26,266 bases of DNA from the IMG/VR virus record IMGVR_UViG_3300030107_003766, positions 1 to 26,266 of that record; one strand, given 5' to 3'. The notes beneath the pieces were generated by a model. The model was not told where the DNA came from. It saw only the letters and a program-made list of their open reading frames with translations, and made no database searches. The position numbers were made by a program, and so were the translations under genes. Of the stretch, positions 2,200 through 9,299 are shown in pieces (position 1 is the stretch's first letter; every line of letters starts with the position of its first letter). This stretch comes from a virus.

Positions 2200-2829
2200 T
2201 TAATATGGCTTTAAATTTAGAGCTTTTAAATTAACACTACCCTCTAAAATACTGCACCAATCCACCTCAATATACAATGTAGATGTGCTGTGCATAAGCT
2301 GAAATGGGTGTTTATTAGTTTTTATATTTGGTTTTCCAAGCCAACCAACATATAATTTTTGATCTCCTGATCTTTGTATTATACTTATGTGATTGTAAGC
2401 TCTTTCATCTTTTTTTCCTAATCTTTGAAATTTACTATCAAAAATATGAACTAAACCCTCATCAAATTTAAAATGAAAACTAGAGTCTTGGTCCTCTGAA
2501 CCACGATAAACTATTCCATACCAACCTGGTCTAACACTTGGTAAATCTATGTGTAGTCTGTCAAATTTAAACAATTCTACTGGACCATTAGTATGATATT
2601 GACCAGATATTTCTAGTGGCATTGGTGGAAATAATAAAATTTGTGCAGATGGTATTTGTAATTCTTGTATATTTGCAATTTTTTCTGCTAATGATGGCGT
2701 TAAACTTGCATTACCATTTAATACTTTGTTTAAATGAACTTTATTAATATTAATTTTTTTTGCCAATATTTCTTGTGTAATACCAGCTTCAGCCATTTTT
2801 TCTCTTAACTTTTGCATTTCAATAATCAT
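2200..2829 (-). CDS. CI-like transcriptional repressor (XRE-type HTH plus unknown C-terminal domain)
   Basis: A 209-aa protein. The N-terminus (about 5-55) is a canonical XRE/Cro-CI helix-turn-helix, with ITQEILAKKININKVHLNKVLNG and a following LTPSLAEKIA helix. The C-terminal 150 residues are beta-rich (GPVELFKFDRLHID, GWYGIVYRG, KLYVGWLG) and could be a dimerisation or peptidase-like fold. I see no obvious Ser/Lys dyad or Ala-Gly cleavage site of S24/LexA repressors. The gene diverges from the Cro-like gene at 2924, the arrangement of a phage immunity switch. There is no Shine-Dalgarno before the ATG and a TATAAT sits only six bases upstream, so the mRNA may be leaderless, as lambda cI is from PRM. 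The family is clear; the repressor role is strongly suggested by context. Confidence 0.75.
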   Translation of the reverse strand: MIIEMQKLREKMAEAGITQEILAKKININKVHLNKVLNGNASLTPSLAEKIANIQELQIPSAQILLFPPMPLEISGQYHTNGPVELFKFDRLHIDLPSVRPGWYGIVYRGSEDQDSSFHFKFDEGLVHIFDSKFQRLGKKDERAYNHISIIQRSGDQKLYVGWLGKPNIKTNKHPFQLMHSTSTLYIEVDWCSILEGSVNLKALNLKPY

Positions 2830-2923: not shown

Positions 2924-3130
2924 ATGACTTTACACGAATGGAAAACTCTTAAAAACATTAGAACTTTAAGGGAATTAGCTAATAAAATAGGTGTAAATGA
3001 GTCAAAAAATCCTGCGAGATTAGTTCAAAGATGGTTAAATGGCACTTCTTATCCAAGAAAACGCCATTTGGATATGATCTTTAAGGCAACAAATGGCAAA
3101 GTTACAGCAAACGATTTCTTTACCCAATAA
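2924..3130 (+). CDS. Cro-like / YdaS-type HTH regulator
   Basis: A 68-aa protein consisting almost entirely of one helix-turn-helix. RTLRELANKIGVNESKNPAR forms helix 1 and the turn, RLVQRWLNGTSYPRKRHLD carries the recognition helix, and a final helix follows. The W.NG..YPRKRHL pattern resembles YdaS/Cro-type phage antitermination-switch regulators. It is the first gene of the rightward early operon, divergent from the CI-like gene, and so is the natural Cro counterpart that shuts off repressor synthesis. The next gene overlaps its 3' end by 38 bases. There is no clear Shine-Dalgarno (the ATG follows TTAGCTAA), so translation may begin on a very short leader. The HTH assignment is firm; the Cro role is inferred from position. 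Confidence 0.7.
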   Translation: MTLHEWKTLKNIRTLRELANKIGVNESKNPARLVQRWLNGTSYPRKRHLDMIFKATNGKVTANDFFTQ

Positions 3131-3437
3131 AATTAAAGTTGGATCGGTGGACATATTTGTCCAGTTAATAGACGGATTAGTTGATATTTCAGAGGATGAG
3201 GGAAGTTATGACGGAACAAAACAAACCATAATACTAGATAAAAACCTTATAGAACGCCAAAATTCTTACTCTTTGTTACTGCTTTTACACGAATTGGACC
3301 ATGTTATTTATGAACAACACCTTTTAAAATCAGCAGATGAGGAAATAGTCGTCAATGCTTTTTCCCATGCTACTGTTCAAATACTGCGAGATAATCCTGA
3401 TTTAAAAAAATGGATTGATTTATGCCTGACATCATAA
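3093..3437 (+). CDS. HELDH zinc metallopeptidase, ImmA/IrrE-like
   Basis: A 114-aa protein with a zinc-peptidase signature, LLLHELDHVIYEQ, at about 62-74 (HExxH at 66-70). A downstream EEIVVNAFSHA (83-93) can supply the glutamate third ligand, as in ImmA/IrrE-type (gluzincin) peptidases. The preceding beta-strand text (TKQTIILDKNLIE) fits small phage-borne members of this group, which often end with NP and a hydrophobic helix, seen here as NPDLKKWIDLCL. It overlaps the Cro-like gene by 38 bases and the DnaA-like gene by 16. In Bacillus ICEBs1 and several phages an ImmA peptidase cleaves the neighbouring XRE repressor, so cleavage of the 2200-2829 product is a testable guess. Catalytic class is well supported; substrate is not. 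Confidence 0.7.
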   Translation: MAKLQQTISLPNKIKVGSVDIFVQLIDGLVDISEDEGSYDGTKQTIILDKNLIERQNSYSLLLLLHELDHVIYEQHLLKSADEEIVVNAFSHATVQILRDNPDLKKWIDLCLTS

Positions 3438-3850
3438 AAGCAAATAAATTTGAGCAAGATAAATTAGATAAAATTAAATTTAAAAAAAAAGAATGGAAAG
3501 TTGTAAAAGATATAACTGTTGAGCTTACAGAATTTGAAGTTAAATCTATAAAAAAATTAGTCAACAATCCTATTGTTATGCGTATGATTGCTGATTATCC
3601 AAGAGCAATAGTAAAAGATGGTTTATTTGAAAATGCACACAAAGTTTGCAAATATTATGGGATAAGCCTGGAGCAATTAGTCGGCAAAAAAAGAGATCGT
3701 TATATAGTTCAAGCTAGGCGTGATTTTTGTCATTTAACTAAAAAAAATACAAAACAAAGTGTTGGTAGGTTTTTAAAAAGAGATCATACTATGGTTATTC
3801 ACTATTTAAAGCAGCCACCACATAATTTGGATAAAATTAATGCTACTTAA
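3422..3850 (+). CDS. Stand-alone DnaA domain IV-like DNA-binding protein
   Basis: A 142-aa protein. Residues 73-131 match the C-terminal DNA-binding domain of the bacterial initiator DnaA. YYGISLEQLVGKKRDRYIVQ is followed by ARRDFCHLTKK and by the signature RDHTMVIHYLK (120-130), equivalent to the RDHTTVxHA motif that contacts DnaA boxes. There is no AAA+ ATPase: the N-terminal 72 residues are basic and lack Walker motifs. It cannot unwind an origin alone. It might bind DnaA-box-like sites on the phage genome, compete with host DnaA, or recruit replication partners. It sits between the metallopeptidase and a winged-helix initiator-like gene, overlapping both, so replication control is the natural reading. 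The domain call is confident; the biological role is inferred. Confidence 0.8.
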   Translation: MPDIIKANKFEQDKLDKIKFKKKEWKVVKDITVELTEFEVKSIKKLVNNPIVMRMIADYPRAIVKDGLFENAHKVCKYYGISLEQLVGKKRDRYIVQARRDFCHLTKKNTKQSVGRFLKRDHTMVIHYLKQPPHNLDKINAT

Positions 3851-4445
3851 AAGATGGAAGTTATTACTTGAAGTTATGGCGGATAATACACTTCATGCGA
3901 GTTCTTATCGTGTTATGACTTTTATGTTAAATCGAGAAAATTCAAAGACTAAAGCTCTATTTCCTAGCCATAAAAAACTAGCAGAAGATACTAATTTGTC
4001 GGAGAGATCAGTTAGGCGTGGTGTTGATAGCTTAATTGTAAATAATTATTTAATAAAAATTAAAAGAGGAGGTCCAGGAGTATCCACAAGGTATGCGATT
4101 AACTACAAACAGAGGACAATTATGTCAAAATTAGAGGACAATAATGACCGTAACATACGGACAGATATGACCGACAAATCTACTAATAAATCTACTAATG
4201 AATCTAGGGTAAAAATTAATCACGCTGTTAATAGATTGGCTAAAAATTTAAATGGCAATTATAAAGCAGTAAAAGAGGGTAAAAGAAAAGCATTTAATAG
4301 TAATGATGAAGTATATGCTAGAATATTAAAAAAAACGGGAAGTTTTGAAAAAGCACAAGCATATTTAGACTTAAAAAATTCTGCGGATTTTAACGATAAA
4401 ACGAAAGCAGAAGATTTTGCTAAATATCTTGGATGTCTGAAATAA
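3840..4445 (+). CDS. Winged-helix replication-initiator-like protein (HTH_36 type)
   Basis: A 201-aa protein. Residues about 17-90 form a helix-turn-helix of the kind in phage replication proteins (HTH_36 / lambda O N-terminus). HASSYRVMTFMLNRENSKT is helix 1, FPSHKKLAEDTNLSERSVRR is the HTH, and LIVNNYLIKIKRGGPGVSTR is the wing hairpin. A Ser/Thr/Asn linker (about 100-122) leads to a basic helical C-terminal domain that I do not recognise. Proteins of this build bind repeated sites at phage origins and recruit host helicase loaders. The start overlaps the previous gene by 11 bases; an alternative ATG at 3876 would remove 12 residues, and neither has a strong Shine-Dalgarno. No helicase or primase is encoded nearby, consistent with use of host enzymes. 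Confidence 0.65.
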   Translation: MLLKRWKLLLEVMADNTLHASSYRVMTFMLNRENSKTKALFPSHKKLAEDTNLSERSVRRGVDSLIVNNYLIKIKRGGPGVSTRYAINYKQRTIMSKLEDNNDRNIRTDMTDKSTNKSTNESRVKINHAVNRLAKNLNGNYKAVKEGKRKAFNSNDEVYARILKKTGSFEKAQAYLDLKNSADFNDKTKAEDFAKYLGCLK

Positions 4446-4870
4446 CAACACACGATTTAATTATATTATTTGAAGAAGCTGCCAGAACAGATCGCAGATT
4501 ACCACCAGCTATTAAAAAACAAAAAACAACAGCTAGTTGGTTGGCTACTAAACAAGAAAAAATGTATTCTCATTCCTGGAATAAAGTAGATTTTGTGATT
4601 AGACCAAGCTCAAAAGACATTAGTCGGTGGTGGGTTGCTAGTATTATTCTCCGGGAAGTTGTTGAGGATATAGACTTAAAAAGGATTATTTGGCTGAAAG
4701 CAAAAAAATTTCCTTGGACTCATATAGCTAGGTTTGTCGGTGTAGATAGACGGAAAGTAAAAAAGATGTGGGAAGAAGAAATTATGTATATTCGGTTATG
4801 GCTGCAACTTCATAAACAAAATAAAAAAATTAATGACATAATTGACAAAATAATGTTAAGAAAAGGATAG
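4433..4870 (+). CDS. DUF6362-like protein with HTH
   Basis: A 145-aa protein resembling the DUF6362 family common in alphaproteobacterial phages. Visible family marks are FEEAARTDRRLPPA near the N-terminus (14-26), a central SSKDISRWWVASIILREV helix, and a C-terminal HTH, RRIVWL-like IIWLKAKKFPWTHIARFVG followed by DRRKVKKMWEEE. The C-terminal part resembles an RNA polymerase sigma region 4 or terminase-small-subunit HTH, so DNA binding is likely. It is the last gene of the rightward early operon, overlapping the initiator-like gene by 13 bases and ending 10 bases before a convergent gene. Possible roles are late transcription activation or a packaging accessory. The family is recognised; its function is not established. 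Confidence 0.65.
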   Translation: MSEITTHDLIILFEEAARTDRRLPPAIKKQKTTASWLATKQEKMYSHSWNKVDFVIRPSSKDISRWWVASIILREVVEDIDLKRIIWLKAKKFPWTHIARFVGVDRRKVKKMWEEEIMYIRLWLQLHKQNKKINDIIDKIMLRKG

Positions 4871-4880
4871 AATGAGAGTT

Positions 4881-5084
4881 CTAGTCGGATTTTTTTAGTT
4901 CGTTATATTTTTCAGCCATTGACAAAAAATTTTTTAAATATCTAGGCGGTTTAGTCGGTCCATTAACCCATCTTGATATTATGTTTCTATCGTTTGTTGA
5001 TGCTGTATTAAATAACAACTTACACAAGTCGCCTTGAGTCATTTTATTTTTTTTTAAAAATGCTTGTAACTGTTTGGAAGTCAT
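4881..5084 (-). CDS. Small XRE/YdaS-type HTH regulator
   Basis: A 67-aa single-domain helix-turn-helix protein: LQAFLKKNKMTQGDLCKLLF, then a short insertion (NTASTNDR), NIISRWVNGPTKPPRYLKN as the recognition helix, and a short C-terminal helix. Its build resembles the Cro-like protein at 2924 (both have W-NG and P-R-L signatures), so it is a second Cro/YdaS-type switch protein. It converges on the rightward early operon and is separated from the leftward small-gene cluster by a terminator, so it has its own promoter. A TATAAT (5106-5101 on the minus strand) lies 16 bases before the ATG and no Shine-Dalgarno is present. The promoter overlaps a 19-bp element repeated at 6744-6762, which suggests autoregulation and control of the cluster at 5164-6713. 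Confidence 0.7.
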   Translation of the reverse strand: MTSKQLQAFLKKNKMTQGDLCKLLFNTASTNDRNIISRWVNGPTKPPRYLKNFLSMAEKYNELKKSD

Positions 5085-5092
5085 AAAGGTTT

Positions 5093-5111
5093 TATATACT
5101 ATTATATGATA
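5093..5111. promoter_or_regulatory. Copy 1 of a duplicated 19-bp control element, overlapping a -10
   Basis: The plus strand reads TATATACTATTATATGATA. It matches the element at 6744-6762 at 18 of 19 positions and covers the minus-strand TATAAT of the HTH gene ending at 4881. It is a candidate operator for that regulator. Confidence 0.5.
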
Positions 5112-5113
5112 AA

Positions 5114-5143
5114 AAAAACCCCCTTATTAAAGAGGGTTTTAGT
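5114..5143 (-). terminator. Intrinsic terminator of the leftward small-gene operon
   Basis: A hairpin with arms AAAACCC-C-CTT and AAG-A-GGGTTTT (one internal mismatch, loop ATTA). Read on the minus strand it is followed by an eight-base T run (5118-5111). It lies about 20 bases past the stop of the leftward gene at 5164 and just before the promoter of the next leftward gene. On the plus strand the arm also ends in TTTT, so weak bidirectional use is possible. Confidence 0.8.
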
Positions 5144-5158
5144 CGGTTTTTAGTCGGT
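5137..5158 (+). repeat. Tandem 11-bp direct repeat TTTTAGTCGGT
   Basis: Two perfect adjacent copies (5137-5147 and 5148-5158). They are the densest part of a one-orientation cluster of TAGTCGG words at 3678, 4621, 4882, 4952, 5140, 5151 and 5459. The 11-bp period is one helical turn, so both copies face the same side of the DNA, as protein-binding iterons do. Confidence 0.65.
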
Positions 5159-5163
5159 ATTAT

Positions 5164-5430
5164 TTATTCTTTATAAAAAACATTATATCTATCAATACAG
5201 CTCATATGTGATATTTTTTCAACTAAATCCAATAATTTGTTTTGTAATTTATGAGATTTTTTGTAGTCAATTTTATTAAATAAACTAATGTGGTTACAAT
5301 AAGGTTCATGTTGTTCAATTTGACAATCTAAAAACCAAAACCAAGTATCTCTAAAATCTTGTGTTGATTGTCCCATATCTTCATCTAAATCTCTAAAGTT
5401 ATGGATAACAGTAGGTGTATATTTACTCAT
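5164..5430 (-). CDS. 88-aa hypothetical protein of the leftward small-gene operon
   Basis: An 88-aa acidic protein beginning MSKYTPTVIHNFRDLDEDMG. It has an aromatic patch (DTWFWFLDCQIEQHEPYCNH) with two Cys and two His that might bind metal, and a helical C-terminus (KLQNKLLDLVEKISHM). The family is unrecognised. It is the last gene of the operon: the terminator follows and one TAGTCGGT word precedes its leader. The start is set by AGGAGCTTAAAAA directly before the ATG, the same leader used by two other genes here. Small unknown proteins in this position are often early host-takeover or anti-defence factors, but nothing in the sequence proves that. Confidence 0.65.
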   Translation of the reverse strand: MSKYTPTVIHNFRDLDEDMGQSTQDFRDTWFWFLDCQIEQHEPYCNHISLFNKIDYKKSHKLQNKLLDLVEKISHMSCIDRYNVFYKE

Positions 5431-5471
5431 TTTTTAAGCTCCTTTGCTAATTGGTATTTAGTCGGTTTAAT

Positions 5472-5663
5472 TTAAATAGAGATTATTTCTCCGCTAAATT
5501 GTAATTTATTTTGAATTTGTTCATAAATAAAATTTTTTTCAATTTTATGTATTTTACAACTTTTTGGAATTATTGCTCCGTATCTGTCTTTAATTTCAAT
5601 ATCATTATTTTTTATGATCCAATAAATAGGATAATAATATTTTTCTAGTTCTTGATTAGTCAT
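5472..5663 (-). CDS. 63-aa hypothetical protein of the leftward small-gene operon
   Basis: A 63-aa protein starting MTNQELEKYYYPIYWIIKNN and ending LQFSGEIISI. It is rich in Tyr, Ile and Lys, with alternating hydrophobic residues suggesting a small beta or alpha-beta fold. No domain or membrane segment is recognised. The start is well supported by AGGAGCTTAAAAA before the ATG. It lies three bases after the upstream gene's stop, with a 41-base gap to the next start that contains ATTTAGTCGGT. Confidence 0.6.
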   Translation of the reverse strand: MTNQELEKYYYPIYWIIKNNDIEIKDRYGAIIPKSCKIHKIEKNFIYEQIQNKLQFSGEIISI

Positions 5664-5968: not shown

Positions 5969-6522
5969 TATTTTAACCCGTTTTTAATTAAACAAGAATG
6001 ATAAGTATGATTGATTGCAGAATTAATTTTGTTAAGAGTCTTTTTTTCCTCTAATTTTTTCTGTTCTCTATCTTTATTATCTTCTCTTAATCGTTGTAAG
6101 TCTGCTGGATCACTTAAATTATAAGTTCCAGTAGATTTGATTTCAAATTTAACAGATTTCATTACATGATTAATTGATGACTTTTCACATAACTTCATTT
6201 TTTGAAGTTCTTTTAATTGGTCATAATCAATTCTGTTTTTAAATTTGGCTATGTCTTTGTCAGTTTCCCAAAGACCCAAACCATCAGTTACAACATGATT
6301 ATTTTTGTTAAATCCTAAAACAGCAATAGTTGAATATGTGCTTTTTTTCGGTTTACACCATTTATTATTTTTAGGATTAAGAGTAGCATAGCAAAAGCGA
6401 TCTCCTCTGTTTTTAACTGTTTCTATCCAATAACGGCGTTTAGTTTTATATCTAAAACCCCAGGGATAGTTGTCAACTTCAACAGCATTTTCAAAGCTGT
6501 CTTTATTATAAATATATTTCAT
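5968..6522 (-). CDS. 184-aa hypothetical phage protein of the leftward operon
   Basis: A 184-aa protein. The N-terminal part (about 15-85) has a pattern I associate with a recurrent hypothetical family in marine phages: YPWGFRYKTKRRYWIETV, then a GDRFCYATLNPKNNKWCKPK motif and KSTYSTIAVLGFN. The C-terminal part (about 100-170) is a long highly charged helix (DLQRLREDNKDREQKKLEEK). There are no membrane segments or catalytic motifs that I can name. It overlaps the upstream 64-aa gene by four bases, with AGGAGCTTATTTAAA before the ATG, a variant of the operon's shared leader. The Lys/Arg richness of the first half fits nucleic acid binding. Function unknown. Confidence 0.7.
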   Translation of the reverse strand: MKYIYNKDSFENAVEVDNYPWGFRYKTKRRYWIETVKNRGDRFCYATLNPKNNKWCKPKKSTYSTIAVLGFNKNNHVVTDGLGLWETDKDIAKFKNRIDYDQLKELQKMKLCEKSSINHVMKSVKFEIKSTGTYNLSDPADLQRLREDNKDREQKKLEEKKTLNKINSAINHTYHSCLIKNGLK

Positions 6523-6713
6523 TTTAAATAAGCTCCTTTCTTAAAATGATTAATTGCAACGCTAACAGTAAAAGACTCGGACCAATGACGAGGGTAACAA
6601 CTACCCGCATTTTTTGGAAGTTTTTTACCATTAATGAAAATTCTACGACCTCTCAATGATTTGCCTAAACCTTTCATTGTTTTGCCGTATAAATCTATAA
6701 TAGTTATATTCAT
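6519..6713 (-). CDS. 64-aa basic hypothetical protein, first gene of the leftward operon
   Basis: A 64-aa basic protein: MNITIIDLYGKTMKGLGKS, then LRGRRIFINGKKLPK and WSESFTVSVAINHF. The positively charged hairpin-like middle (RGRRIFINGKK) suggests nucleic acid contact, but no family is recognised. AGGAG stands seven bases before the ATG. It is the first gene behind the promoter at 6740-6769 and overlaps the next gene by four bases, so it should be the earliest product of this cluster. The family is unidentified and the role cannot be stated. Confidence 0.6.
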   Translation of the reverse strand: MNITIIDLYGKTMKGLGKSLRGRRIFINGKKLPKNAGSCYPRHWSESFTVSVAINHFKKGAYLK

Positions 6714-6739: not shown

Positions 6740-6769
6740 ATTATATATACTAATATATGATAGTAACAA
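6740..6769 (-). promoter_or_regulatory. Promoter of the leftward small-gene operon, with the duplicated 19-bp element in its spacer
   Basis: On the minus strand TTGTTA (6769-6764), 18 bases, then a perfect TATAAT (6745-6740), about 27 bases before the first ATG. The spacer is filled by TATATACTAATATATGATA (6744-6762 on the plus strand), copy 2 of the element at 5093-5111. The surroundings are almost pure AT, so -10-like words are common here and the call rests on the pair plus the repeat. Confidence 0.6.
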
Positions 6770-6800: not shown

Positions 6801-7046
6801 ATGGTAGGGCGACCAAGTAAAAAAATTCAATGCCAGGCAAGACGAAAATATGACGGGCAACAATGCCAGGCAAAAGGATTATTGACTAAAAAAGGAAGTT
6901 ATATTTGCCGTTTGCATGGTGGTTTATCAACTGGACCAAAGTCAATAGATGGCAAGATTAAAAGTTTATCAAAATTAAAACAATTTAAGGACAAAACACA
7001 TGAAGAAATCAAAAGCTATATTACAAATCATCCAGGAACAGCTTGA
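6801..7046 (+). CDS. HGGxSTG-type small protein (zinc-finger-like)
   Basis: An 81-aa protein containing the HGGLSTGPKS motif (38-47) of the HGGxSTG family. Cysteines at CQARRKYDGQQC and YICRLH, with the His, could form a small zinc-binding site. This family is common just upstream of phage terminase genes, often in place of, or next to, small HNH or packaging proteins. It opens the rightward packaging/structure operon and overlaps the small terminase gene by 47 bases. No Shine-Dalgarno is present (the ATG follows AAAAAAAATT), so it may be translated from a short leader. The family call is good; its role, perhaps in packaging or DNA end processing, is unproven. Confidence 0.7.
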   Translation: MVGRPSKKIQCQARRKYDGQQCQAKGLLTKKGSYICRLHGGLSTGPKSIDGKIKSLSKLKQFKDKTHEEIKSYITNHPGTA

Positions 7047-9073: not shown

Positions 9074-9080
9074 AGGAAAT

Positions 9081-9299
9081 ATGGGATTTTTACGACCAAA
9101 AGCACCACCATTACCGCCAATGCCTATTGCTCCAAAGCCACCACCAACTGTGGCAGAGGATTTGCCAAGTGAAACGCAAATAAAAATTGCAAAAATGATG
9201 GCAAATAAGAAAAAAGGTTTTACGGATACTATTTTAACAAGTACCCAGGGCGATACATCGGAAGCTGATACATACCAAACAACATTATTAGGTTCATAA
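9081..9299 (+). CDS. 72-aa proline-rich phage protein (head-region small protein)
   Basis: A 72-aa protein with a Pro-rich N-terminus (RPKAPPLPPMPIAPKPPPTV) and a C-terminal ILTSTQGDTSEADTYQTTLLG. The TS-QGD...A.T..TLLG ending is a recurrent motif of small proteins next to podovirus portal genes; I know the motif but no function. The frame is open far into the terminase gene, but the ATG at 9081 has AGAGGAA directly before it and starts after the terminase stop, so it is the real start. Its TAA ends immediately before the next ATG. Confidence 0.7.
   Translation: MGFLRPKAPPLPPMPIAPKPPPTVAEDLPSETQIKIAKMMANKKKGFTDTILTSTQGDTSEADTYQTTLLGS

Follow-up and report, generated by a model that had tools for sequence, protein, structure and literature searches.

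A one-way array of TTWGTCGGT words beside the early operon of a phage genome fragment: candidate sites of a phage regulator

A series of short, identically oriented words at the border between the rightward early operon of a phage and a leftward helix-turn-helix (HTH) gene is a real and conserved set of signal sites, to which a phage-made protein very probably binds. The words were studied in a 26,266 bp phage fragment (the whole stretch of DNA analyzed, hereafter the window), whose nucleotide similarity to Pelagibacter phage HTVC010P is weak. Their conserved form is TTWGTCGGT, and, judging from sequence comparison, they may be one-way sites of a phage regulator controlling rightward transcription, with a 67-aa HTH protein (4881–5084) as the likeliest reader; we put this fuller reading at just short of an even chance. 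Their single orientation, their conservation, the constraint on codons, the gain of sites in other lineages, and a change of motif together with the recognition helix of a regulator support the proposal of the earlier note that a phage regulator binds the words.

Exact counting confirmed seven copies of TAGTCGG, the word singled out in the earlier note, all on the plus strand and spanning 3678–5465. When both strands of the 26,266-base record were counted, no copy was found elsewhere or inverted (0 outside the cluster); the word is thus not frequent in the rest of the window, which the earlier note had named as a reason to abandon a functional reading. The computed chance expectation was 0.66; the earlier note had supposed about one copy per window. 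At least seven copies were reached in 0 of 100 shuffles. TAGTCGG was the most clustered 7-mer of the window in a one-strand scan of all 7-mers with at least three G/C, an equally extreme one-strand cluster arose in 1 of 400 simulated order-2 Markov sequences, and the cluster withstands correction for the choice of word, by a margin that is not wide from the window sequence alone. The cluster is real, but TAGTCGG proved too narrow a description: the aligned sites gave the asymmetric 9 bp motif TTWGTCGGT, to which the information was confined, no strongly conserved flank being found over 31 distinct contexts. Exact matches to this motif added 4733–4741 (plus strand) and 4170–4178 (minus strand). 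The helical spacing suggested earlier holds for the perfect 11 bp tandem pair (TTTTAGTCGGT at 5137–5147 and 5148–5158) and fails for the remaining copies, the array having irregular intervals of 113, 148, 70, 188, 11, and 308 bp. GC skew across the window tracked gene direction and gave no mark at 5.1 kb.

The gene order places these words at a transition. A CI-like repressor gene (2200–2829, minus strand; HTH_3, E-value = 3.6 × 10−7; PHROG 3) precedes the rightward early operon, which consists of cro (2924–3130, plus strand; its Cro-like HTH product is similar to that of 4881–5084), a peptidase-like gene (3093–3437; weak Pfam match only), a gene for a stand-alone DnaA domain IV-like protein (3422–3850, plus strand; PF08299, E-value = 1.9 × 10−13), the O-like replication initiation gene rep (3840–4445, plus strand; PHROG 678, E-value = 1.8 × 10−9; HTH_36, E-value = 4.7 × 10−7), and a DUF6362 gene with an HTH-like C-terminal segment (4433–4870, plus strand; PF19889, E-value = 7.9 × 10−10). 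The Cro/CI-like gene of the 67-aa HTH protein (4881–5084, minus strand), classified by an AlphaFold model and weak fold matches, follows, and beyond it lies a leftward series of small genes. A rightward gene at 7000, succeeded by further genes, probably encodes the small terminase subunit on the grounds of position and sequence, with no family match. A terminator hairpin (5115–5140), conserved in the relatives, has a long U tract on the minus strand and U4 followed by AGUCGG on the plus strand. The promoter/operator-like element of the HTH gene (TATACTATTATATGATA, 5095–5111) has a similar sequence in most relatives; the 17 bp element at 5095–5111 (TATACTAWTATATGATA) recurs at 6746–6762, between 6519–6713 (minus strand) and 6801 (plus strand), and is likely a shared promoter/operator. 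A possible plus-strand promoter, TTGACA-N20-TAGAAT (TATAAT in relatives), occupies 4842–4873 and ends near the site at 4881; relatives, among them the outgroup, retain it, two GAC codons beneath it are fixed, and its 20 bp spacer is unusually long for sigma-70, the promoter search having covered 16–18 bp. Beside the HTH gene, the leftward operon forms a cassette region (5159–5455 in the window; also L022 and L026–L038), and the genes from the terminator to 5968, set apart by GGAGCTTAAAAAATG-like start signals, differ across many relatives.

About 20 contigs were collected by way of proteins related to the HTH, DUF6362, and peptidase-like products; all are metagenomic, and many are mutually close, leaving approximately four independent type-I lineages, namely, the window with L022, clade A, clade B, and L070, the last found independently through the peptidase-like gene. 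Since tyrosine integrases were detected in relatives (three above the family cut-off and two below), this phage group is probably temperate. In all four related lineages, the motif was found on the plus strand only and in a common zone comprising the DUF6362 gene, the small antisense HTH gene, and the adjoining terminator. In each type-I lineage, the approximately 1 kb around the HTH gene contained three to nine GTCGG on the plus strand and none on the minus strand: 7 versus 0 in the window (p = 3 × 10−11), 5–9 versus 0 in clade B, 7 versus 0 in L070 (10−10), and 3 versus 0 in clade A (4 × 10−4 to 2 × 10−5). The contigs of 34.4, 27.5, 25.5, and 18.4 kb each contained four TTDGTCGG, all inside about 0.7 kb at the locus. 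Relative to the HTH start, the positions −461, −348, and −200 are shared by L022 and the clade A and B members holding the position, while −191, −130, −42, +58, and others are lineage-specific. In L036, an additional, inserted gene separates the HTH gene from its promoter and bears three GTCGGT in the same orientation; L070 has extra copies in its DUF6362 gene (5818, 5935, and 6052/6060, in coordinates of the locus), retains the one after the terminator, and lacks those in the HTH gene. As read from these comparisons, the sites turn over, and their orientation and zone stay constant.

Individual sites differ in their conservation. The copies at 4620–4628 (TTAGTCGGT, plus strand; Ile-Ser-Arg-Trp) and 4733–4741 (TTTGTCGGT, plus strand; Phe-Val-Gly, absent from the earlier note) lie in the DUF6362 gene, the former at the same place in all type-I relatives, and that at 4881–4889 (CTAGTCGGA, plus strand; TTTAGTCGG in relatives) spans the final sense codon of the HTH gene together with its stop codon. 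L022 and every clade A or B HTH relative that has the position retain these three (words at 4621, 4733, and 4882). At 4881, clades A and B preserve GAC-TA(A/G), with the residue before it varying among Ser, Ala, and Thr; a counterpart is not present in L070. For the copy inside the HTH gene at 4951–4959 (TTAGTCGGT, plus strand; Pro-Thr-Lys), most of clade B has TTTGTCGGT, and clade A and L070 have no counterpart. Immediately after the terminator hairpin stands the first tandem copy (5139–5147, TTAGTCGGT, plus strand), followed by the second (5150–5158, TTAGTCGGT, plus strand), which is confined to the window and L022, and a further TTAGTCGGT lies on the plus strand at 5458–5466, between genes 5164–5430 and 5472–5663, with no counterpart in L022. 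The earlier note regarded non-conserved intergenic copies as evidence against function; this is true of the word at 5459 and largely of that at 5151, but untrue of that at 5140, which is kept in L022, most of clade B, and L070, though not in clade A. In L038, the right flank of the 5459 site joins the terminator directly, so that gene 5164–5430 is flanked by two copies, an arrangement resembling the insertion of a gene cassette at a site. The plus-strand copy in the DnaA-like gene (3677–3685, TTAGTCGGC), seen in the window and L022 only, is probably incidental. The minus-strand word at 4170–4178 (TTTGTCGGT) adjoins the origin iterons described below and is counted with the origin because clades A and B, L070, and the outgroup all retain it in the form TTGGTCGG.

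The two copies in the DUF6362 gene indicate selection at the nucleotide level, since their codons are invariant and rare while most synonymous sites vary. Among the 29 amino acid-invariant four- and six-fold DUF6362 codons scored over 15 distinct sequences, five were fixed, and four of these five were motif codons (hypergeometric p = 2 × 10−4). AGT CGG at 4622–4627 was present in 15 of 15 distinct sequences, as was GTC GGT at 4736–4741; CGG accounts for 2% of Arg codons and GTC for 6% of Val codons in the phage. The same test in rep pointed to a single codon that is both rare and fixed, GAC at 4173, beneath the minus-strand origin-side word.

The outgroup bears on which protein would read the sites. 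It comprises L053/L058 (one contig), L059, and L067, whose gene order matches that of the window, with DUF6362 proteins approximately 65% identical and HTH proteins 45–49% identical to those of the window. TTWGTCGGT was not found in the zone of any of them; instead, ATCGGTC occurs three times on the same strand within the DUF6362 and HTH genes, with no other copy in two outgroup contigs and five in total in the third, although this evidence amounts to three copies in close relatives (DUF6362 DNA 87–94% identical). The recognition helix of the HTH protein starts with NDRN in all type-I lineages and with MTDRV in L053, L059, and L067; NDRN with TTWGTCGGT stands against MTDRV with ATCGGTC, a covariation over one transition. 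This change of word and helix favors the HTH protein as the reader and falls short of proof, as the transition is single and DUF6362 changes in parallel from type I to type II (VGxDRRKVK to FG(Y)(H/S)RRK). The 67-aa protein was modeled by AlphaFold as a four-helix HTH of Cro/CI-type fold (pLDDT 88), with weak fold matches (E-value above 0.1) to the MqsA C-terminal domain, HigA2, and Aca2. Cro/CI-type proteins usually bind as dimers to a dyad, and the lack of dyad symmetry in the 9 bp TTWGTCGGT counts against a reader of this type, as does the dyad-like TACTAnTATATGATAGTA element at the HTH promoter. The named phage collection yielded no relative of either the HTH protein or DUF6362.

On the preferred reading, TTWGTCGGT would be recognized by a phage-encoded DNA-binding protein, most likely the 67-aa Cro-like HTH protein, along an irregular one-way array that covers the junction of the early operon with the leftward HTH gene and reaches the terminator upstream of the latter. 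The bound protein would act on rightward transcription, which must traverse the antisense zone before it arrives at the genes for the terminase and the structural proteins from about 6.8 kb. Such control is suggested by the orientation of the sites, their early/late position, and their overlap with the untranslated antisense zone and the terminator.

It is rather unlikely, though worth weighing, that the DUF6362 protein is the reader, as a late regulator encoded last in the early operon that would act on rightward transcription in the manner of Q-type or RinA/ArpU-type proteins. Its gene ends the early operon ahead of the terminase gene and always holds at least two sites, a possible plus-strand promoter (TTGACA-N20-TATAAT) ends at a site, and its C-terminus is HTH-like and also differs between types I and II; however, its putative recognition helix RRKVK is nearly unchanged in the motif-less outgroup, its model was poor (pLDDT 52, no fold obtained), and no solved relative was found in the PDB. 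Homology was limited to PF19889 and a weak HTH_23 match, no DUF6362 relatives were detected in genome contigs, and literature searches turned up nothing on DUF6362.

An action at the RNA level appears improbable: UUWGUCGGU in the rightward RNA would serve as a linear element of antitermination or processivity, with an effect like that of nut/put, allowing transcription to cross the untranslated antisense zone. The strict orientation, irregular spacing, and absence of a dyad would suit such an element, as would copies in both coding and non-coding sequence, one of them overlapping the plus-strand U tract of the terminator. Several copies, however, lie past the terminator, and no shared local fold was found at the sites in a search for conserved nut/put-like RNA structure, the motif pairing like control 9-mers on RNA folding.

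The view of the earlier note that the words are replication iterons was not sustained, and iterons, or DnaA-box-like sites, are now very improbable. The rep and DnaA-like genes adjoin, the 9-mer starts with TTW like a DnaA box, and a related minus-strand word lies beside the iterons of rep; nevertheless, the plus-strand copies vary in number (3–9) and are irregularly spaced, and a better origin candidate is found in the rep linker. Here, AGGACAATTATGTCAA, AGGACAATAATGACCG, and CGGACAGATATGACCG (4113–4173, 22–23 bp spacing) form dyad repeats GGACA-N4-TGTCC at 4113, 4135, and 4158, with clade B versions close to the dyad, next to two AT-rich 12-mer repeats (AAATCTACTAAT, 4176–4199) that have equivalents in relatives. 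On this pattern, the O-like gene linker (window 4100–4205) is the probable replication origin; the outgroup retains this segment and the origin-side word without the plus-strand array. A perfect dyad at 3148–3163 in the peptidase-like gene (TGGACATATTTGTCCA), with two fixed rare codons (GAC and GTC), resembles the rep-gene iterons. The DnaA-like protein was rejected as the reader: it is swapped between the clade B sisters L032 and L033 and very different in clade A, with the sites unchanged despite different recognition segments. The DnaA domain IV-like proteins (window 3422–3850; L022–L070) have been swapped between close relatives, and their recognition segments are strongly diversified (RDHTMV, KDHTTI, RKHNIV, and DRHHTNV). 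The motif does not fit the DnaA box TTWTNCACA, near-matches to which (TTATNCACA) are below chance expectation in the window.

Chance, combined with coding constraint and one local duplication, is the explanation we disfavor most strongly: four of the seven TAGTCGG copies are intragenic and encode conserved residues, and the tandem pair and the 5459 copy lie at a gene-cassette border, yet the site codons are fixed and rare where others vary, and enrichment arose independently at new positions in other lineages. A packaging (pac) site read by the small terminase TerS was rejected, as the sites do not covary with the TerS recognition helix, the window and L053 sharing the helix KDMPNLATIYKW with different sites and L036 having a different helix with the same sites. 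A search for ParA was negative. Two contigs, L019 and L020, share the exact 21 bp tandem, yet they are unrelated phages and were set aside; L019 has TTTAGTCGGT three times in a row at 9080–9106, derived from a tandem protein repeat (antisense of LHADYKRTTKQTTNGLHADYK).

Phages of SAR11 rank with the most abundant viruses of the ocean, and little is known of how their early-to-late or lysis–lysogeny switch is controlled. Tentatively, and with some doubt, the array and its small HTH reader could represent an undescribed early-to-late control in temperate SAR11 phages, in which the word has been re-specified together with its reader. As read from the sequence, the locus would offer a candidate regulator together with its sites and a natural pair with altered specificity, and it suggests that word clusters inside genes can be functional and may be revealed by the conservation of rare codons.

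Among known phages, HTVC010P has a similar gene order, but it was rejected for comparison, with no recognizable DUF6362 or HTH counterpart and no comparable word cluster there. The DnaA box (TTWTNCACA) is likewise a 9-mer starting with TTW, and a DnaA domain IV-like gene is nearby, but its second half is unlike that of TTWGTCGGT, and the window-type sites are unaffected by the swap of the DnaA-like protein. The rep linker resembles the lambda O gene in holding dyad iterons with adjoining AT-rich repeats, whereas these counterparts (GGACA-N4-TGTCC) differ in sequence from TTWGTCGGT. The late-control region of lambda (Q gene, PR′, and tR′) is similar in that a regulator-like gene ends the early rightward operon, its 3′ end has a possible promoter, and a terminator approximately 240 bp further on is followed by the late genes; however, it has one element where the window has many repeated sites and an intervening antisense operon, and DUF6362 is likened to Q by position. 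Lambda-type operators of the Cro/CI family share with the window a small Cro-like HTH gene beside multiple short sites in the control region of a temperate phage, but they consist of two or three promoter dyads, whereas the array consists of asymmetric one-way 9-mers distributed over approximately 850 bp, many of them intragenic.
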